Positions 16,012 to 39,081 of a DNA stretch of 64,000 nucleotides are shown piece by piece. The first letter of the stretch is position 1, and each line of letters begins with the position of its first letter. This DNA comes from Gallionella sp. (lineage in GTDB: Bacteria > Pseudomonadota > Gammaproteobacteria > Burkholderiales > Gallionellaceae): the NCBI GenBank assembly GCA_028687575.1, contig JAQTZW010000005.1, forward strand, positions 1 through 64,000. Direction: 5' to 3'. Both the position numbers and the translations under genes were made by a program. A model generated the notes under the pieces. That model saw nothing but the letters and a program-made list of their open reading frames with translations, had not been told where the DNA came from and searched no databases.

Positions 16012-16015
16012 AGCC

Positions 16016-18347: not shown

Positions 18348-18912
18348 GATCCTGCTCCTGCCACTTGCTGACGGTGTAGCGCGAAAGGGTGACTTGGTCC
18401 GACCAGAAGTCGGCTGGCAGGCCGGCCTTGCGCTTGAGTTGCGCCATGAACTGGCGGGGCTGTGGCAACTGTTCCCAGACCTGCGGCAGGAAAGTGCTGC
18501 GGTGGTAGCCGAATTCGAACACCACCCCGTCCACGCCGGGGCGCAATTGCGCCAGCGCATCGGCTTCGTCGGTGAACTGCATCGGCTGGCTGGCGGAAAG
18601 CAGCGACACCTCGATGCGGGTGCGGGCCAGTTCCGCAGCGCCGAGCGGCGCAAAACGCGGGTCTTGCAGCGCCGCCGCCAGCGCGTTGTGCCGCACGTCC
18701 GCCAGCAGAGAACGGTGTGCCTGCAACGAGCCGATGCAGCCGCGCAGCTCGCCTTGCTGGGTGAGCGTGACGAAACAGGCGCCGGGCTCGGCCAGCCAGT
18801 CGGCCTCCACATTCGGGGCGGTGTGGGCTACGCCCAGCGCCTGCGCGATGGCGTCACGGGCGATCGCAAGCAACAGCCGGCCTTGTTTATCGGTCAGGGA
18901 TTCAGCGGTCAT
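18340..18912 (-). CDS. amrA: AmmeMemoRadiSam system protein A (AMMECR1 domain)
   Basis: This 190-residue protein consists of an AMMECR1 domain, recognised by LRGCIGSLQAHR (about residues 60-71) and ISLLSASQP-type strands in the second half. AMMECR1 is conserved from archaea to humans and its biochemical role is not established. The start at 18912 (ACGGAG 7 bases upstream) lies inside the end of amrB, an 11-base overlap, so all three genes of the trio are translationally coupled. Confidence 0.92.
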   Translation of the reverse strand: MTAESLTDKQGRLLLAIARDAIAQALGVAHTAPNVEADWLAEPGACFVTLTQQGELRGCIGSLQAHRSLLADVRHNALAAALQDPRFAPLGAAELARTRIEVSLLSASQPMQFTDEADALAQLRPGVDGVVFEFGYHRSTFLPQVWEQLPQPRQFMAQLKRKAGLPADFWSDQVTLSRYTVSKWQEQDHG

Positions 18913-19702
18913 GGTTGTTCTCCGTGAAGGCGATCGCGGCATAGCCCACCACCCGCTCGCGCGAACCCGCCGTGTCGCCGGAGTTGCGCAGGTCGAGCAG
19001 ATGCGGCGCAAGGTGATGATGATTTGCGGCCAGCAGCAGGCCGCTGACCGGCGTGCCGCCGCAGGCGCGCTCGTGGGCGATGGGCTGTTGCAGCTTGAGG
19101 ATAGCGTCCACGGTTTCCCGGTCCACCCGGCAGGCTGTCGGGTAGGGCAGGTAGTGGGAGAGGTCGGAGCTGATTACGATCAGCGTCTCGTCTCCGCCCC
19201 ACACGGCTTCCAGCACTTCGGCGACCTCGGCGGCGTCAGCCATGCCGACCGCCAGCGGCAGCAGCGTGAAATCGTCCAGCACGCTTTGCAGGAACGGCAG
19301 TTGCACTTCCAGCGCATGTTCCTCTGCATGAGTCGCCCGGTTGACGCAGACCTGCGGCAGTTGTGCGATGCGCTGTGCGGCCTCGCCATCCAGCATCACT
19401 CGCCCCAGCGGGGTGTCGAAGGCCTCCACGCCGGGCAGCGCCAGTCCGCGCACCGCGACCCGGTGGGTGGGGCCCAGCAGCACGACGCGGCGGATACGGT
19501 GGGCGACATTGCGCAGCGCAGCGTAGGCGCTGGCGGCGATTGAGCCTGAGTAGATGTAACCGGCGTGCGGTACGATCAGCGCCTTGGGTTGCAGGTCAAA
19601 GAGGGGGGCAAGGTCCAGGAATTGCGCGAGCTGCCGGGCAAGTTCATCGGCATCTGCGGGGTAGAACATGCCTGCGACGGCGGGCGGACGGACGACAAGC
19701 AT
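18902..19702 (-). CDS. amrB: AmmeMemoRadiSam system protein B (MEMO family)
   Basis: This 266-residue protein is a MEMO homologue, related in fold to class III extradiol dioxygenases. The metal-site region is visible in PHAGYIYSG, GPTHRVAVRG, EEHALEVQLPFL and SSDLSHYLPY. It is the first gene of the trio, with an AAGGAG 7 bases before the ATG at 19702. Human MEMO1 has been linked to metal binding and redox signalling, but the bacterial function is unknown. It follows the GGDEF/EAL gene by 97 bases on the same strand, so read-through is possible. Confidence 0.93.
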   Translation of the reverse strand: MLVVRPPAVAGMFYPADADELARQLAQFLDLAPLFDLQPKALIVPHAGYIYSGSIAASAYAALRNVAHRIRRVVLLGPTHRVAVRGLALPGVEAFDTPLGRVMLDGEAAQRIAQLPQVCVNRATHAEEHALEVQLPFLQSVLDDFTLLPLAVGMADAAEVAEVLEAVWGGDETLIVISSDLSHYLPYPTACRVDRETVDAILKLQQPIAHERACGGTPVSGLLLAANHHHLAPHLLDLRNSGDTAGSRERVVGYAAIAFTENNHDR

Positions 19703-19799
19703 GGTGTTATCTCCTTGGTGCGACACCGCCCATGTGGGGATGACTGGCGCAGAATCAACTGGCAACATCCGCTTGCCTTGTATGGCTGTCTACCGGGCG

Positions 19800-22265
19800 C
19801 TAGCGGCCATTCAGCAGGCGGGTGAACTCGTCCAGCGGCACCGGTTTGCCGAACAGGTAGCCCTGATAGCAAAGGCATCCGGCTTTTTCCAGGAAGTCGC
19901 GCTGGGCTTGGGTTTCCACGCCTTCGGCGATGACCTCCATGCCCAGATTGTTGGCCATGCCGATGATGGTTTGCGCAATCACGGTGTCTGCAGCCCTGAT
20001 GCCTATGCTACGCACGAAGGACTGATCAATCTTGAGTTGGTCGAGCGGTAGTTGCGTCAGGTAAGACAGCGACGAGTAGCCCGTGCCAAAATCGTCCATA
20101 GAGAAGCGTACGCCGGTCTGTTTCAAGGCCAGCATCTTGGTAATGGTGTCGCCAATGTTATGGATGACGATGCTTTCGGTCATCTCCAGCTTCAGCAGCC
20201 TGGGGTCTATTCCTGAGCGGTTGATGATCTCTGTCACCTGATTGACGAAATCCGGCTGACGGAATTGTCGTTCACTGACATTTACCGCCAGTTGCAATTC
20301 GCAGGTCAAAGGGTCGTTTTCCCAAGTTTTAATCTGCTGGCAGGCCGATTCGATCACCCAGCGACCGATAGCCAGAATATGACCGGTTTCTTCGGCCATC
20401 GGGATGAATTGTACTGGCGAGATCAGGCCGCGTTCAGGATGTATCCAGCGCAGCAGGATTTCGGCACCGGTAATTTTTCCGGTTTGATCAACCTGCATCT
20501 GGTAATACAGGCGGAACTCCTGTTTTTGTAAGGCGTTGCGCATCCCTGCTTCCAGTTGAGTTCGCGCTTCCAGTTCATCCTGCATGACCGGGTCAAAGAA
20601 GCGCAGTGTATTGCGACCTGATTTCTTCGCGGCATACATCGCGGTGTCGGCCTGTTTGAGCAGCTCGTCGAGTTTCCCTCGGTAGTTGATGAACAGCGTG
20701 ATGCCCATGCTGGAGGAACTGTGGAATTCGTATCCTTCCAGCAAATAGGGCTGACTGAGTACGCCTAGCACTTTTTCAGCCACGCTCCGCGCCTGGATCG
20801 CGGCATGGGAAGCATCATCACTCAATCCTTCAAGGATCAGCACGAATTCGTCGCCCCCGAAACGCGACACGGTGTCTTCCTCTCGCACACATCCCTGTAA
20901 TCGTTTTGCCACTTCGACCAGCAACAGGTCGCCTATGTCGTGGCCCTTGGTGTCATTGAGTGCCTTGAAGTTGTCCAAATCCAGGAATATCAACGCACCG
21001 CCGGTTCGGTGGCGAATACTTGCGGCGACCGAATGATGTAGCCGGTCAAGCAGCAAGCGCCTGTTGGGCAGCTGGCTCAGCGAGTCGTAGTAGGCCAGCT
21101 TGTGTATATCTTGCTCGGCCTGTTTGCGTTCGGTGATGTCCGTGAAGGAACCAATATAGTGGGTGACGTGGCCATCCTGGTCGAGTACGGCGGAAACATT
21201 CATCCATGCCGGGAAGATGCTGCCGTCCTTGCGTTTGTTGATGATTTCGCCCTGCCAGTGGTAATTGCTGTTCAGGCTGTCCCACAGGCCCTGATAGAAC
21301 AGGGCATCATGGCGACCCGACTTGAGCAATGAAGGTTTGCTGCCGATGACTTCTTCAGGGCTGAAGCCGGTGATCCGCGTGAATGCGCTGTTGACACGGA
21401 TGATTACGGCGTGCGCATCCGTCACCATGATGGCTTCATCGATCTCAAAAGCAATCGCGGCGATGCGCGAGGCGGCTTCATGTTCCTCTCGGGCTATCAT
21501 CATGCTGTTGAAGGTATGGGCAAGTTCGGCGATATCGCTGGGGCCGCCGGGGATGGCGCGTACCTGGGATTGGCCGCTGCGTGCGCGTCTCATGCTGATT
21601 GACAATTGTTCCAGTGGTCGAGACATATTGCGTGTCAGTGTGCGTATCGCGAACAGGAACAACAGTGCGAAAGAAATGGCGATGGTCAGGTTGGAAATAA
21701 GAATGCTCGTGGTCATCTTGTCCAGTGCCGCCTTGCTCATCACGACCGAAACCTGGCCCAGAAACTCCGGTTTGGTGGCATCACTGAATGGGGTTGCGGC
21801 CGTTGCTTTCGAATATACCGGCGCGGTGAAGTGCCATGCTTCGTTGTTTTCCGCTGTCAGTTTTGCGGTGATCTGAGCATCATCCTGCAGTGGGTGGTAG
21901 TCTGCCTGCTGTAGGGGATGTGATGTGGTATCGGTCAGGTCAATATTGCCATTGCTGAGCAATACCTTTCCTCCACTATCCCTGATCTGAACGCCGGTCA
22001 CGCCCGGGAAGGCTAGGGTGACTTTAACGGCTTCGGCGGCGTTGTCGGCGGAAGAATAGATCAGTGCCAGCGTACTTTCGCGCGCCAGATTCTCGGTAAT
22101 GTGTTGGCCCTGTTCGATCAGATTCTCGCGCACCCGCCTGTTGCCCTGCCACGATCCGGTAAGGGACGAAAGCATGGCCAGCAGCAGGATGCCCAGCGTG
22201 ATCGAGGCACTGATCTGACGTCGGAAGGTGAACTTCTGCAGAAACGATGGAAATTTGTCCGGCAT
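19800..22265 (-). CDS. Membrane PAS-GGDEF-EAL c-di-GMP turnover protein
   Basis: This 821-residue protein has two membrane segments (about 17-35 and 185-205) enclosing a periplasmic sensor of about 150 residues. HAMP (about 205-265), PAS (about 275-385), GGDEF (about 390-555) and EAL (about 565-815) follow. GGDEF is intact with an RxxD inhibitory site (REED). The EAL motif reads EILLRW with DDFGTGYSSL and EGVETQAQ intact, so both activities are plausible. A TAGGAGA ribosome site embedded in the stop codon of the preceding substrate-binding-protein gene suggests coupled expression. That protein probably feeds the periplasmic domain. Confidence 0.93.
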   Translation of the reverse strand: MPDKFPSFLQKFTFRRQISASITLGILLLAMLSSLTGSWQGNRRVRENLIEQGQHITENLARESTLALIYSSADNAAEAVKVTLAFPGVTGVQIRDSGGKVLLSNGNIDLTDTTSHPLQQADYHPLQDDAQITAKLTAENNEAWHFTAPVYSKATAATPFSDATKPEFLGQVSVVMSKAALDKMTTSILISNLTIAISFALLFLFAIRTLTRNMSRPLEQLSISMRRARSGQSQVRAIPGGPSDIAELAHTFNSMMIAREEHEAASRIAAIAFEIDEAIMVTDAHAVIIRVNSAFTRITGFSPEEVIGSKPSLLKSGRHDALFYQGLWDSLNSNYHWQGEIINKRKDGSIFPAWMNVSAVLDQDGHVTHYIGSFTDITERKQAEQDIHKLAYYDSLSQLPNRRLLLDRLHHSVAASIRHRTGGALIFLDLDNFKALNDTKGHDIGDLLLVEVAKRLQGCVREEDTVSRFGGDEFVLILEGLSDDASHAAIQARSVAEKVLGVLSQPYLLEGYEFHSSSSMGITLFINYRGKLDELLKQADTAMYAAKKSGRNTLRFFDPVMQDELEARTQLEAGMRNALQKQEFRLYYQMQVDQTGKITGAEILLRWIHPERGLISPVQFIPMAEETGHILAIGRWVIESACQQIKTWENDPLTCELQLAVNVSERQFRQPDFVNQVTEIINRSGIDPRLLKLEMTESIVIHNIGDTITKMLALKQTGVRFSMDDFGTGYSSLSYLTQLPLDQLKIDQSFVRSIGIRAADTVIAQTIIGMANNLGMEVIAEGVETQAQRDFLEKAGCLCYQGYLFGKPVPLDEFTRLLNGR

Positions 22266-22276
22266 TATCGTTTCTC

Positions 22277-23299
22277 CTAGCGTTCCGGATAAACCATGTC
22301 GAAATGCTGCGCGCGACCAATATTCAGTCCGAGGTGTTTGGCGGTGCGCAGGTTGACGGAGACCAGCACCTCACGCAGCGGAAGCAGGCTGTCGGTGTCG
22401 TTGCTGTCATTGCCCAAAAAGGCGAGTGCGGATTCGGCGAGATGGCGACCCAGTTCGACATTGTCCGGATATAACGAGAAAAGCACCCCTTGACGAACAT
22501 GACCGGGATTGCTCGAAAATACGGCAAGGTTGCGATTCCAGGATTCCTGCAACACCATGGGAAGCACTGTCCCTTCTTCTACCGTGGTGGGGTCCTGTGG
22601 CAACCAAAGGGCATCACGGCTATTGTCACTCTCGGTCATGATCTTGCTGTAGGCAGTCATCGCTCCCCGCAAGTCCAGTGCCTCGATGGCGATCAATTCG
22701 ATATTCTGGGCGCGGGCGGCCTCTCTAGCCAAGCGTACCAGCCAGGAATTCACGCGTGGATCGTACACGGTGTAGATGCGCCGTACCTTCGGCATCAACT
22801 CCTTGATGCGCAAGAACAGTAGCGCGGGGTCGGGGCATAGCACGTTCACTTGCAGATTTCGTGGCCGACTTTCCTGGGTGGTCAATACCCCGCCGACCAC
22901 TACCCGGAAGCTGTTGTCCAGCGCGGTAGTCAATCTGGCAGCCTGTCGGCCCAGCGCGATGATGACTTTGGTGTCCTTGCGGCGCAGGTTGGCGTTCAAT
23001 TCGGTCGCATCGGCATTCGCTTGCACGGCGAATTCATTGACGCGCCCGTGGGTTCTTTCCTGAATGCCCGCGATGATCTGGGTGAATACGCTGCGGTAGG
23101 GTTCGCTGATGTCGGGATAGAGGACGGCGATACTGCCTGTGCCGGGTAACTGGACAGTCTTGTTGTCCAGAGGCTTGGCAGCAGGGGCGGCGGCATAGAC
23201 TGCGCCCGGCAGTAGCGACGAGATCAGCAACAGCAAAGCTGCCTGCAACCAGCGGCGCGGCAGGTTTGCGATCAGCGGTGCTGTGGCTGTGCGATTCAT
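22277..23299 (-). CDS. ABC-type substrate-binding-like protein, likely sensory partner
   Basis: This 340-residue exported protein has a signal peptide (about residues 17-37, ending VYA|AAP) and the two-lobe fold of the ABC_sub_bind family, with motifs such as IAVLYPDISEPYRSVFTQI, TKVIIALGRQA and VFSSNPGHVRQGVLFSLYPD. No permease or ATPase lies nearby. It is the first gene of a two-gene unit, 11 bases before a membrane GGDEF/EAL gene, so it more likely presents a ligand to that sensor than feeds a transporter. The ligand is unknown. Confidence 0.82.
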   Translation of the reverse strand: MNRTATAPLIANLPRRWLQAALLLLISSLLPGAVYAAAPAAKPLDNKTVQLPGTGSIAVLYPDISEPYRSVFTQIIAGIQERTHGRVNEFAVQANADATELNANLRRKDTKVIIALGRQAARLTTALDNSFRVVVGGVLTTQESRPRNLQVNVLCPDPALLFLRIKELMPKVRRIYTVYDPRVNSWLVRLAREAARAQNIELIAIEALDLRGAMTAYSKIMTESDNSRDALWLPQDPTTVEEGTVLPMVLQESWNRNLAVFSSNPGHVRQGVLFSLYPDNVELGRHLAESALAFLGNDSNDTDSLLPLREVLVSVNLRTAKHLGLNIGRAQHFDMVYPER

Positions 23300-23519
23300 G
23301 GTGTCGTGGTTTCGGAGGAGGCGCTGAAGGTCAGCCGGTCAGTTGAATCAGGTGGGCGGATACTACCAAGTTTTTCCCCCTGTTAGCCAAGCGGGAACAA
23401 AAAAATTCAGCTTGGACGAAAAGCTGGGTTAGCATTGTCAACTGAAAGAATTTGACGGGTTCGGAGGGGGATTTCCTCGGCATGGAGTAATGGGGGAGGC
23501 GTGTGGAGAATGGATAGTC

Positions 23520-25367
23520 ATGGATACTGAAGTATCGCCAAGTGCCGCGCCTGTAGGCAAGGGTGGGCAACAACTGGATGTGGCCGATTTGCTGGTGGCG
23601 TATCTGGAACAGATAGGGGCGGAGTATGTGTTTGGCGTACCCGGCGGCGCGATAGAACCGCTGTATAACGCCATCGCAAGAAGCACTCGACGGGGCCGCA
23701 TCCGTCATATTCTTGCCCGTCACGAAAGCGGGGCCGCCTTCATGGCGGATGGCTATGCACGCGAGACCGGCAAGCTCGCCGTGTGCTGTTCGACATCCGG
23801 CCCGGGGGCAACCAACCTCATCACGGGCGTGGCCTGTGCTTATGACAACAACATCCCCATGCTGGTGATTACCGGGCAGCCTGCCTTGCCTTCCTTTGGC
23901 AAGAATCCGTTACAGGAATCGAGTTGCACCGGCATCAATACCCTGGCCATGTTCCGCCATTGCACCCGCTACAACTCGCTGGTCTCGCATCCGCTGCAGA
24001 TGGAGGCCAAGTTGATCGCCGCCTTGCAAAGTGCGGTGCGTGCGCCCAAGGGGCCGGCGCATCTGAGTTTTCCGGTGGATGTGTTCCGCAGCCCCGCAGC
24101 GAATTCCATGCCAGCCTACGACCTGCGCAACCTGCTGCTGGCTTCCTCCATGGTGGATGACGAGGCTGTCGAGAAACTGAGCGAAATGCTGCTCGAAACG
24201 GGCGAGGTGGTACTGTTGATCGGCGGGGATTGTGGCGAGGCGATAGGCTCGATACTGAGATTCGCAACATTGAAGGGCATGCGCTTCGTCACGACACCGG
24301 ACGGTAAAGGACTCGTCAATCCACGTCATCCCCTGTATTGCGGCGTTTTCGGCTTCGGCGGTCATGCTTGCGCCGATGACACCCTGAAGGATCCCGCCGT
24401 GCAGTTGATACTTGCGGTCGGCACCGGCATGGGGGAGTGGAACAGCGGCGGTTGGTGCGAGAGTCTGCTCAACACGCGTTTGGTGCATATTGATGATTCT
24501 GAAGAGCATCTTTCGCGCACGCCGATGGCGCGTCTGCATGTGCGGGGTCGTATCCTGAGCATTTTCAATGGGCTGATAGAGCGTCTCTACGACAGTCAGA
24601 TGGCTGACAGTGCCAGCTATTGCCAGCAATCTCTGCCGTTGCGGCAGACGGAAGCAGAACTGTTGCTGCAAAAAATGCAGGCTGCCCCCGACAAATTCCT
24701 GAGTGATGCGACGCCAATCACGCCGCAACGGCTGATGTTCGAGTTGGGCCAGGCGTTCCCGCCGACCACCCGCTTTCTCGCCGATACCGGCAACAGCGTT
24801 TCCTGGGCAGTTCATTACCTGAATCCTGCCGCCGACCGGCGCTTTTGCGAAAGAAGACTGGGATTGTGCGGTCGCGGTCGCAAGATTTCGTCCGGACGCC
24901 GCAAGGCGGCCAACGGCTGGCTCAGGGTGACGATGAATTTCGTGCCGATGGGCTGGGCGATCGGCGGCGCAATAGGCACGGCGGCGGCCAACCCCAGTGT
25001 GCCGGTGGTGTGCATTACCGGAGACGGCAGCATGTTGATGAACGGCCAGGAGATCTCGGTTGCCGTGGCGGAAAATATGACGGTCATCTTTGTCGTGCTC
25101 AACGATCAGGCGTTGGGGATGGTCAAGCATGGCCAGCGTCTGGCGGGTGCGGAGCAGATAGGCTGCGGCCTGCCGCCGACCGATTTTGCGATGCTGGCGC
25201 GCGCCATGGGGGCTGAAGCGCATACCATCCGGGCGCCGGAGGATTTCTCCCGTTTCGACATCGCCGCGCTTTGCGCCCGCCGGGGGCCAACCCTGTTGGA
25301 TGTGCTGATAGACCCCGATGAAGTTCCGCCGATGAATGTCAGGATGCGCGTCCTGAATAATACCTAA
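23520..25367 (+). CDS. Acetolactate-synthase-like TPP-dependent enzyme
   Basis: This 615-residue protein has the three-domain layout of the acetohydroxyacid synthase/pyruvate oxidase family. The catalytic Glu lies in HESGAAFMADGYAR (about residue 69). The middle Rossmann-like domain spans about 200-340, and the TPP/Mg motif starts with GDGSMLMNGQE (GDG at about 501) and ends at VLNDQALGMV. A C-terminal insertion around 445-480 is rich in Arg/Cys/Lys. No regulatory ilvH partner is adjacent; instead two citrate-synthase-fold genes follow 8 bases later. The true substrate is probably not simply pyruvate plus pyruvate. The start could also be ATG 23490, but its GGAG sits only 2 bases away, while 23520 has GGAGA at usable distance. 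Confidence 0.85.
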   Translation: MDTEVSPSAAPVGKGGQQLDVADLLVAYLEQIGAEYVFGVPGGAIEPLYNAIARSTRRGRIRHILARHESGAAFMADGYARETGKLAVCCSTSGPGATNLITGVACAYDNNIPMLVITGQPALPSFGKNPLQESSCTGINTLAMFRHCTRYNSLVSHPLQMEAKLIAALQSAVRAPKGPAHLSFPVDVFRSPAANSMPAYDLRNLLLASSMVDDEAVEKLSEMLLETGEVVLLIGGDCGEAIGSILRFATLKGMRFVTTPDGKGLVNPRHPLYCGVFGFGGHACADDTLKDPAVQLILAVGTGMGEWNSGGWCESLLNTRLVHIDDSEEHLSRTPMARLHVRGRILSIFNGLIERLYDSQMADSASYCQQSLPLRQTEAELLLQKMQAAPDKFLSDATPITPQRLMFELGQAFPPTTRFLADTGNSVSWAVHYLNPAADRRFCERRLGLCGRGRKISSGRRKAANGWLRVTMNFVPMGWAIGGAIGTAAANPSVPVVCITGDGSMLMNGQEISVAVAENMTVIFVVLNDQALGMVKHGQRLAGAEQIGCGLPPTDFAMLARAMGAEAHTIRAPEDFSRFDIAALCARRGPTLLDVLIDPDEVPPMNVRMRVLNNT

Positions 25368-25375
25368 GGAAAACA

Positions 25376-26173
25376 ATGAGTAATTCTGAAAAAACCGCCG
25401 CGATCCGCACCCGCATCTGGCGGGAAGAGCCTGAAGCCGATAACCCGTTCGCCACCCGCGCCGCCTATTGCCGGGGCTTTGATGTGTATGGCGAGATGTT
25501 GGGCAACGCGCGTTGGGTGGAGATGCTCTATCTGCTATTCCGTGAGCAAGCTCCCAGCCCGGCACAAGCCGATTTGCTGGAAGCGTTGGCCGTGGCGCTG
25601 GCCAACCCCGGCCCGCGCGATGCCTCGGTGCATGCTGCCATGTGCGGCGGGGTGTGCGGCTCGACGGCTGCCTCGACGCTGATGGCGGCGCTGGCGGTCG
25701 GGGCGGGCAATCTGTCCGGCGGACGCGAAGTGTATCTGGCCATGCAGGGGTGGGGTGAGTGCGGTACGGATGTTGCGGCGTGGCGTAACAGGCGTGAGCG
25801 CTTGGCATTGGGTATGGATACAATTTGGCCCGAGCCTGAGCATCCGCCCGGCTTCGACCCGCACGGTGTCAGTACTGCCACGCATGTAAAACAAACGCTT
25901 TCCTGCCTTGCCGGTTTGAGCGAGGGAATATATCTGGTTTGGTTGCAACAAAATCTGCCGGAGCTGGAGTCAATAGTGGGCTGTCCGCTCGCCTTGTCGG
26001 GTGTGGCTGCCGCCGCGTTTGCCGATCTGGGGTTTTCGCCCGATCAGGGCGAGATGCTGCACCTGCTGTTGCGTCTGCCGGGTGCGGCAGCGCATGCGCT
26101 GGAGCAGAAGCCGCTGGGTTACAAGAATTTCCCTTTTGGTACGGTGGAACTGGAGAATGAGGAACAGCCATGA
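25376..26173 (+). CDS. Citrate synthase-like protein A, active site degenerate
   Basis: This 265-residue protein shows the core of the citrate synthase/citryl-CoA lyase fold but is far shorter than GltA (437 residues in this genome). Aligned by eye with GltA, the first catalytic His (274 of Glt[10 protein letters not shown]) is Ser114 in GNLSGGREV. The second (GFGHRVY) may be kept as His156 in EHPPGFDPHG. The catalytic Asp (NVDFYSG) is Leu205 in CPLALSG. It is therefore unlikely to be an ordinary citrate synthase. AGGA lies 7 bases before the ATG. It starts 8 bases after the TPP enzyme and overlaps the next gene by 4 bases. Confidence 0.78.
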   Translation: MSNSEKTAAIRTRIWREEPEADNPFATRAAYCRGFDVYGEMLGNARWVEMLYLLFREQAPSPAQADLLEALAVALANPGPRDASVHAAMCGGVCGSTAASTLMAALAVGAGNLSGGREVYLAMQGWGECGTDVAAWRNRRERLALGMDTIWPEPEHPPGFDPHGVSTATHVKQTLSCLAGLSEGIYLVWLQQNLPELESIVGCPLALSGVAAAAFADLGFSPDQGEMLHLLLRLPGAAAHALEQKPLGYKNFPFGTVELENEEQP

Positions 26174-27006
26174 GTGAACGAAAATACGGGCCGGACAGCT
26201 TGCAGGAAAATGTCGGCGTACTGAAAAGCCGCATGGGGACGTTCTATCCCGGTAGTCATGTGATCTTTCGCGGCCATGACCTGCACCGTGACCTGAAGGA
26301 CATGGACTGGATGGCGCTTTATGTGTTCGGTATCACAGGGCGTCGCTTCAGTGAGCAACAGTTGCGTTTGCTCCATGCCCTGTGGACTTACACCAGCTAT
26401 CCCGATGTCAGGCTGTGGAATAACCGCGTAGCGGCACTGGCTGGCAGCGCACGCAGCACCGGGACGCTGGGGATGGCGGCAGCGTTGGCGGTCTCGGAGG
26501 CTTCGATTTATGGGGGAGGTAACTATACCCGTGCTGTCCGCTTTCTTGTTTTCGCCAGAGAGCATGTGGCAGCGGGGGGCGATCTGGCCGAATGTGTGCA
26601 TCAGGAGCTCAAACGTAACCGCAGCATGGCCGGCTATGGCCGCCCGCTCGTTAATGGTGACGAGCGTAATCCCCATATCCTTGCTCTTGCCGAAGAACTG
26701 GAATTGGATCAAGGGGTTTACTTGCGCATGGCCTTGGAGATAGAGCAAATATTGCTGGCAAGCCGTATGCGCATAAAAATGAACTATGTCGGCCTGTCGG
26801 CTGCACTGGTGGCGGACATGAGTTTTTCTCCTCGTGAGTTCTATCTGTTTGCATTTCCGGCTTTTTTGGCAGGCATGCCCCCCGGTTTCATTGAAGCCTC
26901 AGAGCGTACCGAGGGGACTTTGTATCCTCTGGCTTGCGATGACGTTCTGTATGAGGGAGAATCCTGTCGCCCCTGGTTAAAGTCTGGTAATGATGTGCCG
27001 ATATAG
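26170..27006 (+). CDS. Citrate synthase-like protein B, active site degenerate
   Basis: This 278-residue protein is a second, diverged citrate-synthase-fold protein whose ATG overlaps the stop of protein A (ATGA). By eye all three catalytic positions of citrate synthase are changed: the first His is Tyr114 (SIYGGGNYT), the second is Arg158 (GYGRPLVNGDER, matching [13 protein letters not shown]) and the Asp is Asn205 (KMNYVGL). The CoA/fold landmarks around them remain. The strict coupling to A suggests an A-B hetero-oligomer, either with a new active site or as a binding/scaffold unit for the TPP enzyme. The function is unknown. Confidence 0.78.
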   Translation: MSERKYGPDSLQENVGVLKSRMGTFYPGSHVIFRGHDLHRDLKDMDWMALYVFGITGRRFSEQQLRLLHALWTYTSYPDVRLWNNRVAALAGSARSTGTLGMAAALAVSEASIYGGGNYTRAVRFLVFAREHVAAGGDLAECVHQELKRNRSMAGYGRPLVNGDERNPHILALAEELELDQGVYLRMALEIEQILLASRMRIKMNYVGLSAALVADMSFSPREFYLFAFPAFLAGMPPGFIEASERTEGTLYPLACDDVLYEGESCRPWLKSGNDVPI

Positions 27007-27038
27007 GGCCCGGTACGATCGGAACAATTGAACGATAT

Positions 27039-29108
27039 ATGCCATCATTTCATGCTGGAAAACTGACTGTGCTGCTCGCCATGTTATGGGGCGGAGCCGC
27101 TTATGCAACGCCCTCTGATGAGGAGGAGTTGGCGCTGGTATATGGTGACAAGGCCAATATCAGTATTGCCACGGGAAATTCGCAGTCCACCCGTCGTGCG
27201 CCGTCATCCGCGACCGTAATCACGGCCAACGACATCGCTGATATGGGGGCGACCAATCTGGATACGGTGCTGGAAACCGTACCCGGGCTTCATATTTCCT
27301 ATTCCAGTTCAGGACTGAATTCTATCTACAGTTTCCGTGGCATTGCCACCAGCCACAATCCGCAGGTGCTGATGCTGGTCAACGGCATTCCCATTACCAA
27401 CGTGTTTTGGGGCGACCGTAGCCTGATATGGGGGGGTATGCCGCTTGAGAATGTGGCGCGCATCGAGGTGATACGGGGGCCGGGCTCGGCGGTATATGGT
27501 GCGGATGCCTTTTCCGGCGTGATCAATGTCATCACCAAAACAGCGGCGGATATCAACGGCACCGAATTTGGCTTCGGGGCGGGCAGTTTCAACAGCCGCG
27601 CTGCCTGGATACAACATGGCGGCAAGCTGGGCGAACTGGATGCGTCCTTTTATCTGCGCGCCTCTAACAGCGACGGACAAAATGGCATCATCCGGCAGGA
27701 TGCGCAGTCGGTGCTGGATACGATTTTCGGTACACGGGCATCGCTGGCACCAGGCCCAGTCAATGCCCAGAATAAGTCTGTTGATATGCGCGCCGAGTTG
27801 GCGAAAGATGAGTGGCATATGCGGGCGGGGTATCAGCAACGCGAGTTGGGAACTGGCGCCGGCGTGGCGGGTGCGCTCGACCCGCTGGCGCGGGCGCATT
27901 CTTCCCGGCTTTACTTGGACGCGAGCTACGACAAGGTCAACTGTCTGCCAAACTGGGATGTATCGGCTGTGTTGGGGTATTACAACATCAAGGACAAGCC
28001 CGGCAATCCGGCCTATACCCTGTTTCCGGCCGGGTCTGTCTTGCCTTCGGGGGCATTCCCGAATGGCATGATAGGCAACCCCGGTCACGCAGAGCAGCAC
28101 ACGCACGGCAGCGTGTCCGCCTTCTATACGGGGTTTGCCGATCATCGTGTGCGGGTGGGAACCGGCTTTCGGGTCGAGGATCTTTATGCGACCTGGGAGG
28201 CCAAGAACTACGATGCGAATTTCGCTCCCTTGCCCGGCATAGTGAATGCGACCGGTAACCCGGCACTGATCTACATGTTGCCGCACAAGCGCAATCTGGT
28301 TTATGCCTTCGCCCAGGATGAATGGAGTTTTGCGCAGGACTGGACGCTGACCGCTGGGGTGCGCACCGATCGTTACTCGGATTTTGGCAGCACGACCAAC
28401 CCGCGTTTCGCACTGGTTTGGGATGCGGCCTACAACGTCGTGGTCAAGGCCATGCATGGCAGTGCCTTTCGCGCACCATCTTTCGCAGAACAATTTTCCA
28501 TAAATAATCCGGTGGCTGTTGGCACTCCCAATATTCAGCCAGAAACGATGTCCAGCGATGAGCTGGCGTTTTCCTGGAAGGTTTCGCCCGATTTAGAGAC
28601 CAACCTGAATTTCTTCCAGTACCGGATGCGCAACATCATCCTGCCGGTCGCAGCCAGGTATCAAAATATCGGCGATCAGACAGGGCACGGCATGGAATTT
28701 GATGCGACTTACGATGTTTCCAGCAAACTACGGATTGCTGGCAATATCGCTTTGCAACGCTCGACAGACAAGACTACCGGGCAGGATGCCGGCATAGCAC
28801 CGCATAGTCGCGTGTTCGTGCGTGCTGACTGGCGTGTCGCTCCGCAATGGCAATTGGGCACGACCCTTAATCATGTGGCAGGCCGGATGCGCGAGCCGGG
28901 CGATGTGAGGCCTAACGTGCCTGACTACACCACGGTGGACATGGTACTTCGTCACGATAATTTTGCGAATGACTGGGATGTGCGAGCCGTGGTGACGAAT
29001 TTATTCAACCGCACCGCTTGGGATCCGACCTTTAAGTCGGTCGGCATGCCGTCGGATTTACCCCTGCCGGGGCGTGCTTTTTATCTGATGATACAGAATA
29101 CGCTTTGA
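27039..29108 (+). CDS. TonB-dependent outer-membrane receptor
   Basis: This 689-residue receptor has a signal peptide (cleavage near AYA|TPS), a plug domain (about 50-165) with the motifs SSATVITANDIADMG, VLMLVNGIPI and IEVIRGPGSAVYGADAFSGVINV, and a 22-strand-type barrel ending in an aromatic-rich strand (FYLMIQNTL). It lies 32 bases after citrate synthase-like gene B and is the last gene before a terminator, so it probably belongs to that operon. It would import a siderophore, cofactor or other large ligand using TonB energy. The N-terminal part most resembles colicin/vitamin/siderophore receptors, but the ligand cannot be named. Confidence 0.9.
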   Translation: MPSFHAGKLTVLLAMLWGGAAYATPSDEEELALVYGDKANISIATGNSQSTRRAPSSATVITANDIADMGATNLDTVLETVPGLHISYSSSGLNSIYSFRGIATSHNPQVLMLVNGIPITNVFWGDRSLIWGGMPLENVARIEVIRGPGSAVYGADAFSGVINVITKTAADINGTEFGFGAGSFNSRAAWIQHGGKLGELDASFYLRASNSDGQNGIIRQDAQSVLDTIFGTRASLAPGPVNAQNKSVDMRAELAKDEWHMRAGYQQRELGTGAGVAGALDPLARAHSSRLYLDASYDKVNCLPNWDVSAVLGYYNIKDKPGNPAYTLFPAGSVLPSGAFPNGMIGNPGHAEQHTHGSVSAFYTGFADHRVRVGTGFRVEDLYATWEAKNYDANFAPLPGIVNATGNPALIYMLPHKRNLVYAFAQDEWSFAQDWTLTAGVRTDRYSDFGSTTNPRFALVWDAAYNVVVKAMHGSAFRAPSFAEQFSINNPVAVGTPNIQPETMSSDELAFSWKVSPDLETNLNFFQYRMRNIILPVAARYQNIGDQTGHGMEFDATYDVSSKLRIAGNIALQRSTDKTTGQDAGIAPHSRVFVRADWRVAPQWQLGTTLNHVAGRMREPGDVRPNVPDYTTVDMVLRHDNFANDWDVRAVVTNLFNRTAWDPTFKSVGMPSDLPLPGRAFYLMIQNTL

Positions 29109-29131
29109 GGAATTTCAATAGGTCTGACTGC

Positions 29132-29160
29132 AAGGGGGCGTTGCGCCCCCTTTGGTTTTT
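29132..29160 (+). terminator. Intrinsic terminator after the TonB receptor
   Basis: AAGGGGGCG and CGCCCCCTT form a 9-bp stem around TTG, followed by TGGTTTTT. It closes the TPP enzyme/receptor unit and lies at the convergent junction with mdh. Confidence 0.85.
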
Positions 29161-30151
29161 AGCCCAGCAGATGCTTCACGTGCTCGCGCTCTTCCATCAG
29201 TTCACGGTAGCTGTCTTCCATGTGCTTGCGGCCCAATTCGCTGATTGGCAGATTCTGCACGATGTCGTAATGGCCATTACGGCAGATCACCGGGAAGCCA
29301 TACATCACGCCTTCCGGGATGCCGTAGCTGCCGTCTGACGGTACGCTCATGGTCACCCAGTCGTTGTGGTGGGAACGCAGCAGCCAGTCGTGTATGTGGC
29401 TGATCGCGGCGTTGGCGGCACTCGCGGCGCTGGACAGGCCGCGCGCTTCGATCACTGCCGCACCGCGTTTTTGCACGGTCGGGATGAATTCGCTTTCTAC
29501 CCAATCTTCCCAGCCATTGTGGTGCAGCACGTCCAATACCTTGCGGCCACGGACCTCGACGTGCGACAGGTCGGGATACTGGGTTCCGGAGTGATTGCCC
29601 CACACCACCATTTTCTTGATGTCCTGGATCGGCTGGAACAGTTTCAGGGCGACTTGGGTAATGGCACGGTTGTGATCCAGTCGCATCATCGCGCTGAAAT
29701 TGTGCGGATCGAGGTCGGGGGCATTCTTCATCGCGATCAGCGCGTTGGTGTTGGCGGGGTTGCCGACCACCAGCACTTTCACATGGCGCGCGGCGACCTC
29801 GTTGAGGATGCGGCCCTGTTCGGAGAAGATCGCGCCGTTGGCTTCCAGCAGGTCCTTGCGTTCCATGCCCTTACTGCGCGGACGCGCACCCACCATCAGC
29901 ACCACTTCGGCATCGCGGAAGGCGACGCGCGGGTCATCGGTGGTGATGATTTGCTGCAACATCGGGAAAGCACAGTCTTCCAGTTCCATTGCCACGCCGC
30001 GCAAGGCCTGCTGCGCCGCCGGGATGTCCAGCAATTGCAGGATGATGGGTTGCTCGCGGCCCAGCATGTCGCCATTGGCGATGCGGAACAGCATGTTGTA
30101 ACCGATCTGACCAGCGGCGCCGGTGATGGTGACGCGGATGGGTGCTTTCAT
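29159..30151 (-). CDS. mdh: Malate dehydrogenase
   Basis: This cytosolic NAD-dependent enzyme oxidises malate to oxaloacetate in the TCA cycle. Its 330 residues match the proteobacterial group that resembles cytosolic eukaryotic MDH. The nucleotide-binding loop is GAAGQIGY (about 11-18), substrate arginines lie in [15 protein letters not shown] and the catalytic His in [21 protein letters not shown] ribosome site lies 8 bases before the ATG. It is divergent from the sdh operon with 111 bases between the starts, a space that must hold both promoters. Confidence 0.96.
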
Positions 30152-30262
30152 TGATGCCTCCTCGGTGGAAATAGTGTGCGCATCATAGTGCGTTTGGTTT
30201 CATCGTGCCATGTAATAGGTGTAACATGCCGCCCAGTATTTTCCTCACGGTAAAGGCTGGCA

Positions 30263-30637
30263 ATGAACAAACGTCGTCCCAAGCATCTTGCGTTGCATCT
30301 CATCAAGTTGCCCCTTCCGGGTTTTGTTTCAATCCTTCATAGAGTTAGTGGTCTTGTCCTGTTTCTGGCGCTGCCGGTGCTGCTGCTGATGCTGCAATAC
30401 AGCCTCAATTCGATTGCGACTTATACCGATTTGATGGTGGTGCTGGCGCATCCCATCGCCAAACTCGTGCTGCTGGGGCTGCTGTGGTCGTTCCTGCATC
30501 ATTTCTGTGCGGGGCTGCGCTATCTGGCGATAGATTTGCATTATGTGCGCAGCCTGGGGCAGGCACGCGCCAGCAGCATGGTGGTGATGGCGGTGAGTCT
30601 GCTGCTGACCATTCTGATCGGAGTTCAATTATGGTGA
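30263..30637 (+). CDS. sdhC: Succinate dehydrogenase cytochrome b556 subunit
   Basis: This membrane anchor of complex II has 124 residues and three hydrophobic helices (about 28-48, 65-83, 101-121). The signature SILHRVSGLVLFL contains the family His-Arg pair for quinone binding. LLWSFLHHFCAGLRYLAID carries the heme-ligand His region. It is the first gene of the sdh-gltA-suc run and overlaps sdhD by 7 bases. Confidence 0.95.
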   Translation: MNKRRPKHLALHLIKLPLPGFVSILHRVSGLVLFLALPVLLLMLQYSLNSIATYTDLMVVLAHPIAKLVLLGLLWSFLHHFCAGLRYLAIDLHYVRSLGQARASSMVVMAVSLLLTILIGVQLW

Positions 30638-30978
30638 ATCGTGTCGTGGTCGGCGCGCATTATGGTTTGCGCGACTGGTTGATCCAGCGCGTTACGGCGG
30701 TGGTGATGGCTGCCGGCAGTCTGGCGATGGGCATCTACATCCTGCTGCACCCGGATATGGGGTATGACCGCTGGATTGCGCTGTTCTCCAGCCAGCCGGT
30801 GCGGGCGTTCGCGCTGCTGTTCCTGTTGAGCCTGTTCTATCACGCCTGGGTCGGCGTGCGCGACATCGTGATGGACTATGTCAAGCCTGCCAGCGTGAGG
30901 CTGGTGATACACGTGCTGGTGATTCTGGCCTTGTTGCTTTACTCGATCTGGTCGGTACAAATTCTGTGGGGAATGTAA
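30631..30978 (+). CDS. sdhD: Succinate dehydrogenase hydrophobic anchor subunit
   Basis: This 115-residue subunit is the second membrane anchor, with three predicted helices (about 20-40, 55-77, 90-112). The start [24 protein letters not shown] is typical of betaproteobacterial SdhD, and [15 protein letters not shown] contains the heme/quinone-site residues. The ATG at 30631 overlaps the sdhC stop, and its own TAA overlaps the ATG of sdhA (TAATG). Confidence 0.94.
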
Positions 30979-32741
30979 TGTCGGTGAGCAAACGAACATT
31001 TGACGTGGTGGTGGTGGGTGCGGGCGGCTCCGGGATGCGCGCCGCGCTGCAACTGGCCGAGGCAGGCCTCAAGGTGGCCGTGTTGTCCAAGGTATTTCCG
31101 ACCCGTTCGCATACCGTTGCCGCGCAGGGCGGCATCGCCGCGAGCCTGGGCAACATCAATGCCGACAACTGGCACTGGCACATGTACGACACCGTGAAGG
31201 GCTCGGACTATCTGGGCGACCAAGATGCCATCGAATTCATGTGCCGTGCCGCACCCGAGGTGGTGTACGAGCTGGAGCATTACGGTATGCCGTTCGACCG
31301 GCTGGATTCCGGAAAAATCTACCAGCGTCCGTTCGGCGGCCATATGCAGGAATACGGCAAGACCCCGGTGCAGCGCGCCTGCGCCGCCGCCGACCGCACC
31401 GGCCATGCGCTGCTGCATACCCTGTACCAGCAGAACGTCAAGGCCAATACCAATTTCTTCATCGAGTGGATGGCACTCGACCTGATCCGCGATGAGGATG
31501 GCGACGTGCTGGGCGTGACCGCGATGGAGATCGAGACCGGCGAGGTCATGATCTTTCAAGCGCGCGCGACCCTGCTGGCGACCGGCGGGGCGGGGCGCAT
31601 CTTCGCCTCCAGCACCAATGCCTTCATCAATACCGGCGACGGGCTGGGCATGGCGGCGCGCGCCGGCATCCCGCTGGAAGACATGGAATTCTTCCAGTTC
31701 CACCCGACCGGCGTGTATGGCGCGGGTGTGCTGATCACCGAGGGCGTGCGCGGCGAGGGCGGTTATCTGCTCAACAAGCACGGCGAGCGTTTCATGGAGA
31801 AATACGCGCCGAACGCCAAGGATCTGGCCAGCCGCGACGTGGTGTCGCGCGCCATGACCATCGAGATCAACGAGGGACGCGGTTGCGGCCCGCATGGCGA
31901 CCATGTGATGCTGAAGCTAGACCATCTGGGCGAGGAGGTGATTCGCCACCGCCTGCCGGGGATACGCGAGATCGCCATGAAGTTTGCCCATGTGGACCCG
32001 GTGCACAGCCCGATCCCGGTGGTGCCGACCGCGCATTACATGATGGGCGGCATCCCGACCAATTATCACGGCCAAGTGGTCGCCCCCTGCCACACCGCGC
32101 CGGAAGAAGTGGTGCAAGGCCTGTACGCCGTGGGCGAGTGCGCCTGCGTGTCGGTGCACGGCGCGAATCGGCTGGGCTGCAACTCGCTGCTCGATCTCTT
32201 GGTATTCGGGCGCTCGGCGGGCCGGCAGATCATCGAGGATTTGAAGCGTAATCCACATCCCAAACCGCTGCCTGCCGATGCGGCGGCGCGTTCGCTGGCC
32301 CGTCTGGACAGGCTGGAGAATCAGAAGGACGGCGAGCGGGTCGGTGAGGTCGGCGCACAGATGCGCAAGGTCATGCAACAACATTGCGGTGTGTTCCGCT
32401 TCCCCGAATTGCTGGCCGAAGGCGTGACGCAGATCAAGCAGGTTGCCGAGCGCGCGGCACGCACCGAAATACAGGACAAGAGCCGCGTGTTCAATACCGC
32501 ACGCGTCGAGGCGCTGGAGCTGGACAACCTGATCGAAGTGGCGACGGCGACGATGATAGCCGCACAGGCGCGTCAGGAAAGCCGGGGTGCGCATGCGCGT
32601 GACGATTACACCCAGCGTGACGATGTTAACTGGCTGAAGCACAGCCTGTATTTCCGTGAGGATCACCGGCTCGATTACAAGCCGGTGCGCTTGAAGCCGT
32701 TGACGGTGGACTCGTTCCCCCTCAAGCCACGGGTTTACTAG
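30978..32741 (+). CDS. sdhA: Succinate dehydrogenase flavoprotein subunit
   Basis: This catalytic subunit oxidises succinate to fumarate. It has 587 residues from the ATG at 30978; a GTG 12 bases upstream is in frame but would lengthen the protein into sdhD. The FAD-binding GAGGSGMRA is near the N-terminus and His45 in [10 protein letters not shown] is the covalent FAD attachment site. [23 protein letters not shown]-like (here [14 protein letters not shown]) and the C-terminal [21 protein letters not shown] are family hallmarks. The FAD-linkage His fits the need for the SdhE protein encoded two genes downstream. Confidence 0.97.
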
Positions 32742-32757
32742 CAGGGAGAATGGACTA

Positions 32758-33453
32758 ATGAAATTCCGTATTTACCGCTACAACCCGGAAACCGATGCCA
32801 GGCCGCGCATGCAGGACTATGAACTGGACATCGAGCCTGCTGGCAAGATGTTGCTGGACGCGCTGGTATCGCTGAAGGAGCAGGACGACAGCCTGTCGTT
32901 GCGCAAATCCTGTCGCGAAGGCGTGTGCGGCTCCGATGCGATGAACATCAATGGTCGCAACGGGTTGGCCTGCATCACGCCGCTGGCTACCTTGAAACAG
33001 CCGGTGGAACTGCGCCCCTTGCCCGGTCTGCCGGTGATCCGCGATCTGATCGTGGACATGACGCAATTCTTCAAGCAATACCATTCGATCAAGCCCTATT
33101 TGATCAACAACGACCCGCCGCCCGAGACAGAGCGGTTACAATCGCCCGCCCAGCGCGCGCATCTGGACGGCCTGTACGAATGCATCCTGTGCGGTTGCTG
33201 CACCACTTCGTGCCCGTCGTTCTGGTGGAATCCCGACAAGTTCGTCGGCCCCGCCGGGCTGTTGCAGGCGTATCGCTTCATCGCCGATACCCGCGATCAA
33301 GCCACCAGCGAGCGGTTGGACGACCTGGAAGACCCGTATCGCCTGTTCCGCTGCCACACCATCATGAACTGCGTGGATGTCTGCCCCAAGGAATTGAATC
33401 CCACCGAGGCGATAGGCAAGATCAAGGACCTGATGGTCAAGCGGATGGTATGA
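32758..33453 (+). CDS. sdhB: Succinate dehydrogenase iron-sulfur subunit
   Basis: This 231-residue electron-transfer subunit carries three Fe-S clusters. The [2Fe-2S] ligands are in CREGVCGSDAMNINGRNGLAC, the [4Fe-4S] ligands in CILCGCCTTSCP, and the [3Fe-4S] set in CHTIMNCVDVCPK. The length and order are normal. It starts 16 bases after sdhA and its stop overlaps the ATG of sdhE. Confidence 0.97.
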   Translation: MKFRIYRYNPETDARPRMQDYELDIEPAGKMLLDALVSLKEQDDSLSLRKSCREGVCGSDAMNINGRNGLACITPLATLKQPVELRPLPGLPVIRDLIVDMTQFFKQYHSIKPYLINNDPPPETERLQSPAQRAHLDGLYECILCGCCTTSCPSFWWNPDKFVGPAGLLQAYRFIADTRDQATSERLDDLEDPYRLFRCHTIMNCVDVCPKELNPTEAIGKIKDLMVKRMV

Positions 33454-33692
33454 GCGGGAATGCGGAACAGGCGCGACTGCGCTGGCGGTGTCGGCGCGGA
33501 TTGCTGGAACTGGATATTGTGCTGGGGCGTTTTGTCGAGACGCAGCATGACGATTTATCCGCAAGTGAACGGCAAATATTTGATGAGTTTCTGGATATGC
33601 CGGACAACCCGCTATGGGATATGATTTCGGGCCGGAAAGAAGCGGCGACCGAAGCGCAGGCGGCGTTGCTGGAAAAACTCAGACTGGTTTAA
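33450..33692 (+). CDS. sdhE: FAD assembly factor SdhE
   Basis: This 80-residue protein belongs to the SdhE/Sdh5 family that helps attach FAD covalently to SdhA. The conserved RGxxE motif is present as CRRGLLELD (about residues 14-22), followed by the acidic helix and the PLWDMI segment near residue 55. The ATG at 33450 overlaps the sdhB stop (ATGA); the longer open frame upstream is only an alternative reading of sdhB. Confidence 0.93.
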   Translation: MSGNAEQARLRWRCRRGLLELDIVLGRFVETQHDDLSASERQIFDEFLDMPDNPLWDMISGRKEAATEAQAALLEKLRLV

Positions 33693-33724
33693 CACCTCGT
33701 AATTGACAGAAGATTGGAAAATTG

Positions 33725-35038: not shown

Positions 35039-35057
35039 ATCTGCCGATTTTCTGAAG

Positions 35058-37893: not shown

Positions 37894-37907
<14 letters not shown>
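35058..37907 (+). CDS. sucA: 2-oxoglutarate dehydrogenase E1 component
   Basis: This thiamine-diphosphate enzyme decarboxylates 2-oxoglutarate and passes the succinyl group to SucB. It has 949 residues from the ATG at 35058, the start that gives the normal N-terminus ([20 protein letters not shown]); earlier in-frame starts at 35013 and 35025 lie within gltA. Landmarks are the active-site stretch [34 protein letters not shown], the TPP-binding [11 protein letters not shown]...NNQIGFT and the C-terminal [12 protein letters not shown]. It overlaps sucB by 14 bases. Confidence 0.95.

Positions 37908-39081
<1,174 letters not shown>

Follow-up and report, generated by a model that had tools for sequence, protein, structure and literature searches.

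A recurring locus of a thiamine pyrophosphate carboligase, paired citrate-synthase-fold proteins, a TonB-dependent receptor and a sensor in Gallionella, with a proposed role in making and sensing a small molecule

Gene clusters for the furanolides cyanobacterin and maculalactone encode a thiamine pyrophosphate (TPP)-dependent enzyme, CybE, that forms an acyloin from two alpha-keto acids, and a second enzyme, CybF, through which the acyloin receives an O-acyl group from a coenzyme A (CoA) thioester and cyclizes to a butenolide; the available parts of the published accounts also name cybE and cybF for deoxyenhygrolide (PMC13288894, PMC8777810). Another group of described systems comprises GGDEF/EAL receptors that are stimulated by periplasmic solute-binding proteins, as covered in the accessible part of a review (PMC9602780). 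Here we analyze a locus that can be compared with both, located in a window of 64,000 nucleotides (the whole stretch of DNA studied, positions 1 to 64,000 of the forward strand of contig JAQTZW010000005.1, assembly GCA_028687575.1) from Gallionella sp., family Gallionellaceae. An operon for a TPP-dependent carboligase, two small citrate-synthase-fold proteins (CSa and CSb) and a TonB-dependent receptor lies divergent to genes for a periplasmic binding protein (PBP) and a GGDEF-EAL sensor. Systems in which a self-made molecule has its own uptake and sensing are known as a kind, while this recurring gene set is apparently undescribed: no description was found in open-access literature, and three papers considered (PMC12141560, PMC7522526, PMC3751524) are unrelated to it as far as their available parts go. 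Our preferred reading, to which we give slightly better than even chances, is that an acyloin-derived small molecule of variable structure is produced by the locus itself, taken up again and sensed, its synthesis being the part that we infer. The genes are listed below with their positions in the window.

19800..22265, minus strand: membrane sensor with HAMP, PAS, GGDEF and EAL domains (Pfam), 821 aa, the putative cyclic di-GMP (c-di-GMP) output arm
22277..23299, minus strand: PF04392 periplasmic binding protein (Pfam), the putative ligand-presenting partner of the sensor
23490..25367, plus strand: TPP (thiamine diphosphate, ThDP)-dependent carboligase resembling acetohydroxyacid synthase (AHAS) and ScyA, 625 aa (open reading frame list; Pfam TPP_enzyme N, M and C)
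25376..26173, plus strand: CSa, small protein of citrate-synthase/citryl-CoA-lyase fold, 265 aa (profiles, predicted structure)
26170..27006, plus strand: CSb, second small citrate-synthase-fold protein, 278 aa (profiles, predicted structure)
27039..29108, plus strand: TonB-dependent receptor, 689 aa (Pfam plug and barrel)

The preliminary description of this DNA, which started the TPP gene at an alternative ATG at 23520, had claimed tight coupling of the operon genes, and the spacing agrees: 8 bases separate the TPP gene from CSa, CSa and CSb share a 4-base ATGA overlap, and 32 bases lie between CSb and the receptor gene. It overlooked the PBP and the sensor, although both belong to the conserved set. 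CybE and CybF provide the nearest published chemistry that we found, likened by description and not by sequence. The resemblance, proposed here by analogy, is that a TPP enzyme is followed by a second enzyme using a CoA thioester. In contrast to CSa and CSb with their citrate synthase fold, CybF is a homologue of 3-oxoacyl-acyl-carrier-protein synthase (ketosynthase fold). Genes for a CoA ligase and an ammonia lyase belong to the furanolide clusters; neither was seen at this locus, and the accessible parts of the published account name no TonB receptor, PBP or sensor.

The first operon gene encodes all three domains of a TPP enzyme (Pfam N, M and C domains with E-values of 8.5e-40, 2.5e-18 and 2.4e-31). 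Aligned with Escherichia coli IlvI, it retains the catalytic Glu (in ARHE) and the GDG...N motif (GDG...LND), features that it shares, along with the domains, with the AHAS large subunits IlvB and IlvI. It differs from them in scoring only 269.8 bits against the AHAS model TIGR00118 (270 of the 538 needed) and in the residues aligned with FDDR and KQW of IlvI, whose Arg and Trp we take to be the acceptor-binding residues of AHAS; MGEW and KHG stand there instead, and the Arg/Trp signature is missing. There is no adjacent ACT regulatory subunit, the next gene 3' being CSa, which bears out the earlier assignment of an AHAS-like enzyme without its regulatory subunit. A true AHAS large subunit (827 bits) is encoded on another contig of the same genome. 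Because the genome encodes both AHAS and citrate synthase elsewhere, with gltA inside the same window, we rejected housekeeping AHAS or citrate synthase functions for the operon enzymes. A frameshift in the TPP gene at about 443-475 was also considered and rejected, the linker there being common to its relatives. The ScyA model NF035923 matches with 227 bits, far below its cut-off of 1020, and a ScyA-related NCBIfam model with 225 bits; the ScyA model is one of two, among 25 NCBIfam models listed, that align with the protein in a single stretch. The best solved relatives are BbmA and CsmA (PDB), for which no function was found in open-access literature.

CSa and CSb are remote members of their fold. 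CSa reaches 22 bits against PF00285 (cut-off 27) and CSb has no Pfam match at E <= 1, and the best NCBIfam citryl-CoA-lyase models score 55 of the 261 bits needed for CSa and 46 of 245 for CSb. Profile comparison finds each homologous to citryl-CoA lyase, and the best Foldseek match of both predicted structures is the citryl-CoA lyase 6hxp (TM-scores 0.65-0.70; E-values 1.6e-8 for CSa and 3.9e-8 for CSb), so that the two small citrate-synthase-fold genes recognized earlier hold up through sub-cut-off profile matches and structure. We take the catalytic residues of citrate synthase to be His265, His306 and Asp363 (E. coli GltA numbering including Met). In an alignment of 81 CSb rows (72 distinct), His265 is replaced by Tyr and His306 by Arg in 81/81 rows each, Asp363 is kept in 0/81, and the equivalent of R315, the next Arg of the substrate region, is retained in 81/81. 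Among 83 CSa rows (74 distinct), His265 is retained in 12, the Asp363 column is a gap in all 83, and position 306 has no His among its seven commonest letters, which cover 77 rows; the window CSa has Leu, Pro and a gap at the three positions. CSa and CSb are thus predicted to have a citryl-CoA lyase fold without its catalytic set. They share the fold with citryl-CoA lyase, the citryl-CoA lyase module of ATP-citrate lyase and citrate synthase, with CSb keeping the R315-equivalent Arg, and differ from these enzymes in lacking His/His/Asp, in their sub-cut-off scores and in occurring as a pair (49/49 long loci, see below). With the catalytic residues gone, they are by residue neither citrate synthases nor citryl-CoA lyases, though conserved in a new pattern. 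Many other charged residues of CSb are conserved as well, and together with the invariant Tyr/Arg/Arg, residues Tyr114, Arg158 and Arg166 of CSb, these suggest a working site; the pair is possibly a new enzyme family. The word 'degenerate', applied to both genes before, therefore fits the catalytic residues and does not fit in the sense of decay, as both proteins are strongly conserved.

To what extent the genes travel together was assessed in a scan of 84,980 species genomes, which gave 364 encoding stretches, the best 80 of which (79 loci) were retained. All loci were found with CSb, so its presence is by construction, and matches were scored anywhere within a locus. The 49 loci of at least 16.7 kb, 12 of which repeat loci of the family, contain TPP, CSa and CSb in 49/49, the TonB receptor in 47, the PBP in 33, the sensor N-terminus in 34 and a short-chain dehydrogenase/reductase (SDR) match in 24. 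Across all 79 loci the counts are 72 for TPP, 71 for TonB and 47 each for PBP and sensor. The usual order is TPP-(SDR)-CSa-CSb-TonB-PBP-sensor. Carriers belong to the Beta- and Gammaproteobacteria and the Geobacteraceae, and include Oxalobacteraceae, Roseateles, Aquabacterium, Dechloromonas, Sulfuricella, Methylomonas, Moraxellaceae, Geobacter and Pelotalea. With the window genome counted each time, CSb (E <= 0.001) is found in 36 of 150 family genomes (19 of the 94 of good quality), and, with two weak matches each time, in 14 of 250 genomes drawn order-wide and 12 of 398 drawn phylum-wide; the distribution is patchy even inside the genus. Applying that threshold and E <= 1e-60 for TPP, 34 of the 150 family genomes have both, two have CSb alone, eight TPP alone and 106 neither (Fisher p 1e-23, uncorrected for kinship). 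This co-occurrence and the recurrence across loci led us to reject a chance neighbourhood. The preliminary description had named two findings that would overturn its proposal: absence of the trio from every other genome, which its wide recurrence excludes, and a known pathway that accounts for the genes, none of which was found in open-access literature. In three further loci (L168, L169, L171) the order is TonB-CSa-CSb-TPP-PF04392 protein with 21-36% identity to the window proteins (Pfam for L168); this arrangement may be an older form of the system.

Within the operon, the two CS genes behave as one module. The 4-base overlap is possible in 76 of 94 CSa/CSb pairs, and over 73 loci the rank correlation of their divergence reaches 0.73, more than for any other pairing of the four operon genes (TPP-TonB 0.59, CSa-TonB 0.43, TPP-CSa 0.34, CSb-TonB 0.31, TPP-CSb 0.27); TPP-CS co-divergence is 0.43-0.46 over 49 loci. 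The clearest exchange is between L035 and L057, whose TPP enzymes (98%), PBPs (99%) and sensors (100%) are near-identical while CSa (30%), CSb (28%) and TonB (76%) are not. In 300-base windows their flanks show 85-100% nucleotide identity (1.0-7.6 kb and 11.5-16.6 kb), which falls to 47-64% in CSa-CSb and 66-77% in TonB and returns to 96-100% directly after the TonB stop. Similarly, L058 has a TPP enzyme 90-93% identical to those of L050 and L138, with a CS pair (79-89%) and TonB (72-79%) like those of L056 and L057; its TonB is 53% identical to that of L050. In three Geobacteraceae loci (L103, L115, L122) the CS pair has 59-70% identity, the TPP enzyme 32-33% and TonB 30-31%; L103 adds an SDR of 65% identity, and both L103 and L115 have a PF04392 protein and a histidine kinase. 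Close TPP relatives adjoin different CS types in a TPP tree built by a quick method, with long branches flagged and a noCS label that takes in contig-cut loci. Judged from these sequence comparisons, CSa and CSb move as a unit and have repeatedly been transferred as a pair. Partial Mantel tests relate TonB to the CS pair given TPP (0.26-0.30, p <= 0.005, four sets), and give -0.02 and 0.06 (p 0.49 and 0.24) for sensor and CS pair given TonB. The co-variation fits a product shaped by the TPP enzyme and CS pair and recognized by TonB, and the earlier proposal of an enzyme trio linked to its own receptor gains from it, as the trio recurs and the receptor diverges in step with the CS pair even when TPP is allowed for. 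Two loci have extra copies: L097 has two CSa and three CSb copies behind one TPP gene, and in L140 the whole TPP-CSa-CSb unit is tandemly duplicated.

The plug and barrel domains of the receptor score 86.9 and 133.2 bits, above the Pfam cut-offs. Among solved structures, the colicin I receptor, BtuB and ferric-enterobactin receptors come closest to it, matches that are generic. L048 and L051 have a first TonB gene broken across two reading frames, which in L051 is followed by an intact second copy. The PBP is the sole PF04392 match in the genome, and is present in 40 of the 42 TPP-bearing genomes of the family. The sensor N-terminus is sCache_4-like (20.3 bits, below the cut-off of 22.1). Among 67 sensors with this N-terminus, 33 are about 800 aa long with GGDEF-EAL, 14 more have GGDEF-EAL (11 of about 1300-1500 aa), 12 are without it in the same frame and eight are cut; the sensor of L091 combines receivers, Hpt, GGDEF and EAL in a hybrid kinase, and that of L124 is a kinase. 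PBP and sensor N-terminus show the highest rank correlation over 49 loci (rho 0.83, as against 0.66 for TonB-sensor and 0.59 for TonB-PBP). A PBP that adjoins and co-diverges with a membrane GGDEF/EAL sensor is what a binding-protein-coupled c-di-GMP receptor would look like, and with both genes part of the conserved set, the divergent pair points to sensing. The best likeness is with binding-protein-stimulated GGDEF/EAL receptors, of which NspS/MbaA is an example: a periplasmic binding protein adjoins a membrane GGDEF-EAL sensor. The present locus differs in having a PF04392 protein and a linked TonB receptor and enzyme cassette.

The loci also vary in gene content. Of 80 loci, 25 contain an SDR cluster, and among the 79 loci there are five with a sulfotransferase, five with a cytochrome P450 and four with an adenosine 5'-phosphosulfate (APS) kinase; Pfam confirms SDR, Sulfotransfer_3, APS kinase and P450. 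L176 and L178 have the order TPP-TonB-sulfotransferase without the CS pair, and L180 has TPP-TonB. That a sulfotransferase strictly takes the place of the CS pair was rejected as a rule, since 5/79 loci carry a sulfotransferase together with the pair and the sulfotransferase order without it is confined to L176 and L178. Of the eight family genomes with TPP and no CSb match, just G028, G131 and G015 (L176, L178, L180) appear to be real absences; in G080, G127 and G146 (L177, L179, L181) TPP has a CSa neighbour where the contig ends or close to that point, a contig end cuts TPP in G027 (L182), and the TPP match of G011 starts at contig base 8. L060 (G071) retains TPP and TonB with CSa gone and a CSb remnant matching query residues 214-277, which reads as a recent loss of the CS pair. 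In seven of the 150 family genomes (G003, G016, G029, G060, G066, G132, G141) a PBP is found without TPP or CSb, each time adjoined by sensor and TonB. The TonBs of L183, L184, L185, L187, L188 and L190 are 75-78% identical to the TonB of a synthase locus, while those of L186, L191, L192 and L194 are less close (62-69%); the genomes of L190, L191, L192 and L194 also hold a synthase locus elsewhere. In Gallionellaceae an EamA-like permease gene is met repeatedly behind TonB, downstream and on the other strand (L178 12359-13282; L087, L088, L094); it is a possible exporter, assigned by eye and with no exporter search made.

We propose that the TPP enzyme removes the carboxyl group of an alpha-keto acid and couples the remainder with a second carbonyl compound, which would give an acyloin (alpha-hydroxyketone) or a 2-hydroxy-3-oxo acid; the step is proposed because the ThDP motifs are intact and because of family membership. 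CSa and CSb would assemble as a hetero-oligomer of citrate-synthase/citryl-CoA-lyase fold, as their conserved overlap, co-divergence and joint transfer suggest. More speculatively, and by analogy with CybF acting after CybE, the Tyr/Arg/Arg site of CSb might use a CoA thioester to acylate the acyloin or to condense with it, and a lactone or furanone might be closed in the process. Other genomes would vary the product through reduction by an SDR, sulfation by a sulfotransferase (at times accompanied by APS kinase) or hydroxylation by a P450. The product would then leave the cell and return through its cognate TonB receptor, and the PF04392 protein would present it to the sensor, with a change in c-di-GMP here and a phosphorelay elsewhere. 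A wider version, which we offer tentatively and regard as doubtful, is a new class of self-signalling with exchangeable signals. In it, a TPP acyloin synthase and a heteromeric CS pair of a new Tyr/Arg/Arg family would make butenolide- or furanone-like signals that enter through a TonB gate and are read by the PF04392 protein and a membrane sensor acting on c-di-GMP or a phosphorelay; the CS pair and TonB would be a specificity cassette swapped together, SDR, sulfotransferase and P450 would diversify the signal, and listen-only genomes would keep the receptor module. What bears on a ligand both made by the locus and bound by its receptor is the linkage and co-variation of the genes.

Several observations weigh against a self-made, sensed product. 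Having lost the catalytic residues, the CS pair is a poor candidate for aldol chemistry of the citrate-synthase type, and the predicted CSb model is of moderate confidence (pLDDT 78.5). The direction of synthesis depends on tailoring genes present in a minority of loci and on catabolic genes being inconspicuous by eye. TonB is also related to TPP given the CS pair (partial Mantel 0.30-0.54), and the relation of sensor to CS pair given TPP has p 0.24 in the smaller sensor set and p 0.02 in the larger. Neighbouring genes recombine together, so the CS pair and TonB could be exchanged jointly without any matching to a ligand, and such linkage could account for part of the tracking between them; the L057 TonB is 79% identical to the second TonB of L041, which has the other CS type, as near as it is to that of L058. 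The PBP is undetected in 16 of the 49 long loci and the sensor in 15, although at least two of these loci, L103 and L115, do carry a PF04392 protein.

The same gene set might serve the uptake, sensing and breakdown of an environmental compound, imported by TonB and detected by PBP and sensor, with the TPP and CS proteins cleaving it as lyases and the SDR oxidizing it. TPP enzymes and citryl-CoA lyases are able to act as lyases, and the receptor module does stand alone in the seven family genomes described above. We nevertheless consider breakdown unlikely, since the lyase residues are gone from the CS pair, the sulfotransferase, APS kinase and P450 better fit tailoring, and an unsystematic inspection by eye of the clusters shared among loci saw no CoA ligase, CoA transferase or inner-membrane permease. 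The CS pair could instead be a non-catalytic accessory, a scaffold or allosteric partner of the TPP enzyme that replaces the AHAS regulatory subunit, for example by binding CoA or acyl-CoA. Its lost catalytic residues would agree with this, as would TPP genes that persist without the pair (L176, L178, L180) or with a CSb remnant only (L060). The conserved CSb residues, however, suggest a working site and the joint exchange with TonB an altered product, and an obligate complex is at odds both with the low TPP-CS co-divergence over the 73 and 49 loci and with the Geobacteraceae, where the pair sits with a TPP enzyme of 32-33% identity; we regard such an accessory role as improbable.

A metallophore, in the form of an unusual ligand of carboxylated or hydroxyketone type that TonB would take back once it has bound metal, seems to us quite improbable, although the operon has a TonB receptor with ferric-enterobactin receptors among its generic structural matches. 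The genome (2.9 Mb, completeness 99.97%) has no match to IucA/IucC or to a nonribosomal peptide synthetase (NRPS) condensation domain, with positive controls detected, a result that concerns the NRPS-independent siderophore (NIS) and NRPS types. Compared with expectations from mononucleotide shuffles, Fur-like sites with at least 13 of 19 matches occur upstream of TPP in 4/93 cases (3.95 expected), which is no excess, and upstream of TonB in 5/94 (2.30 expected). At 12 or more of 19 there is a weak excess (25 against 17.15 for TPP, 21 against 12.45 for TonB) in favour of a metallophore. These counts do not support Fur control, the sites being near chance at the stricter threshold and in weak excess at the looser one, and a classical siderophore of NIS or NRPS type is disfavoured because of the missing domains and these near-chance sites. 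The chelator suggested in the preliminary description accordingly found no backing.

If the preferred reading of a self-made, re-imported and sensed molecule is true, the locus is a recurring biosynthesis-plus-sensing unit of iron oxidizers, methanotrophs, Geobacteraceae and soil bacteria amenable to genetics, namely Collimonas (with C. silvisoli, L145), Rugamonas (R. rubra, L144), Massilia and Methylomonas (M. koyamae, L098). Natural-product enzymology would gain a citrate-synthase fold that is heteromeric and remodelled in its catalytic residues, and acyloin chemistry would be tied to c-di-GMP control. L035 and L057 would then be a natural swap experiment, in which the product-shaping pair and receptor differ and the remaining locus is near-identical, making ligand specificity directly testable.

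PADLOC gave no defence-system match, and no known RNA or riboswitch was found at gathering thresholds in window positions 18000-38000. A tricarboxylic acid cycle block (mdh, sdh genes, gltA, odhA) begins right of the operon, an arrangement shared only by L053 among 30 family loci compared. Left of the operon is a cluster of c-di-GMP genes, with a second GGDEF-EAL protein carrying MHYT and PAS domains at 13120-16011 and, after it, an HD-domain protein at 15929-17278. Positions 17259-18812 encode a radical SAM protein, whose neighbour is a Memo-like protein (18902-19768), and further to the right, at 42213-49400, lies the gene for a hybrid histidine kinase of 2395 aa with many PAS domains and GAF and CBS domains.

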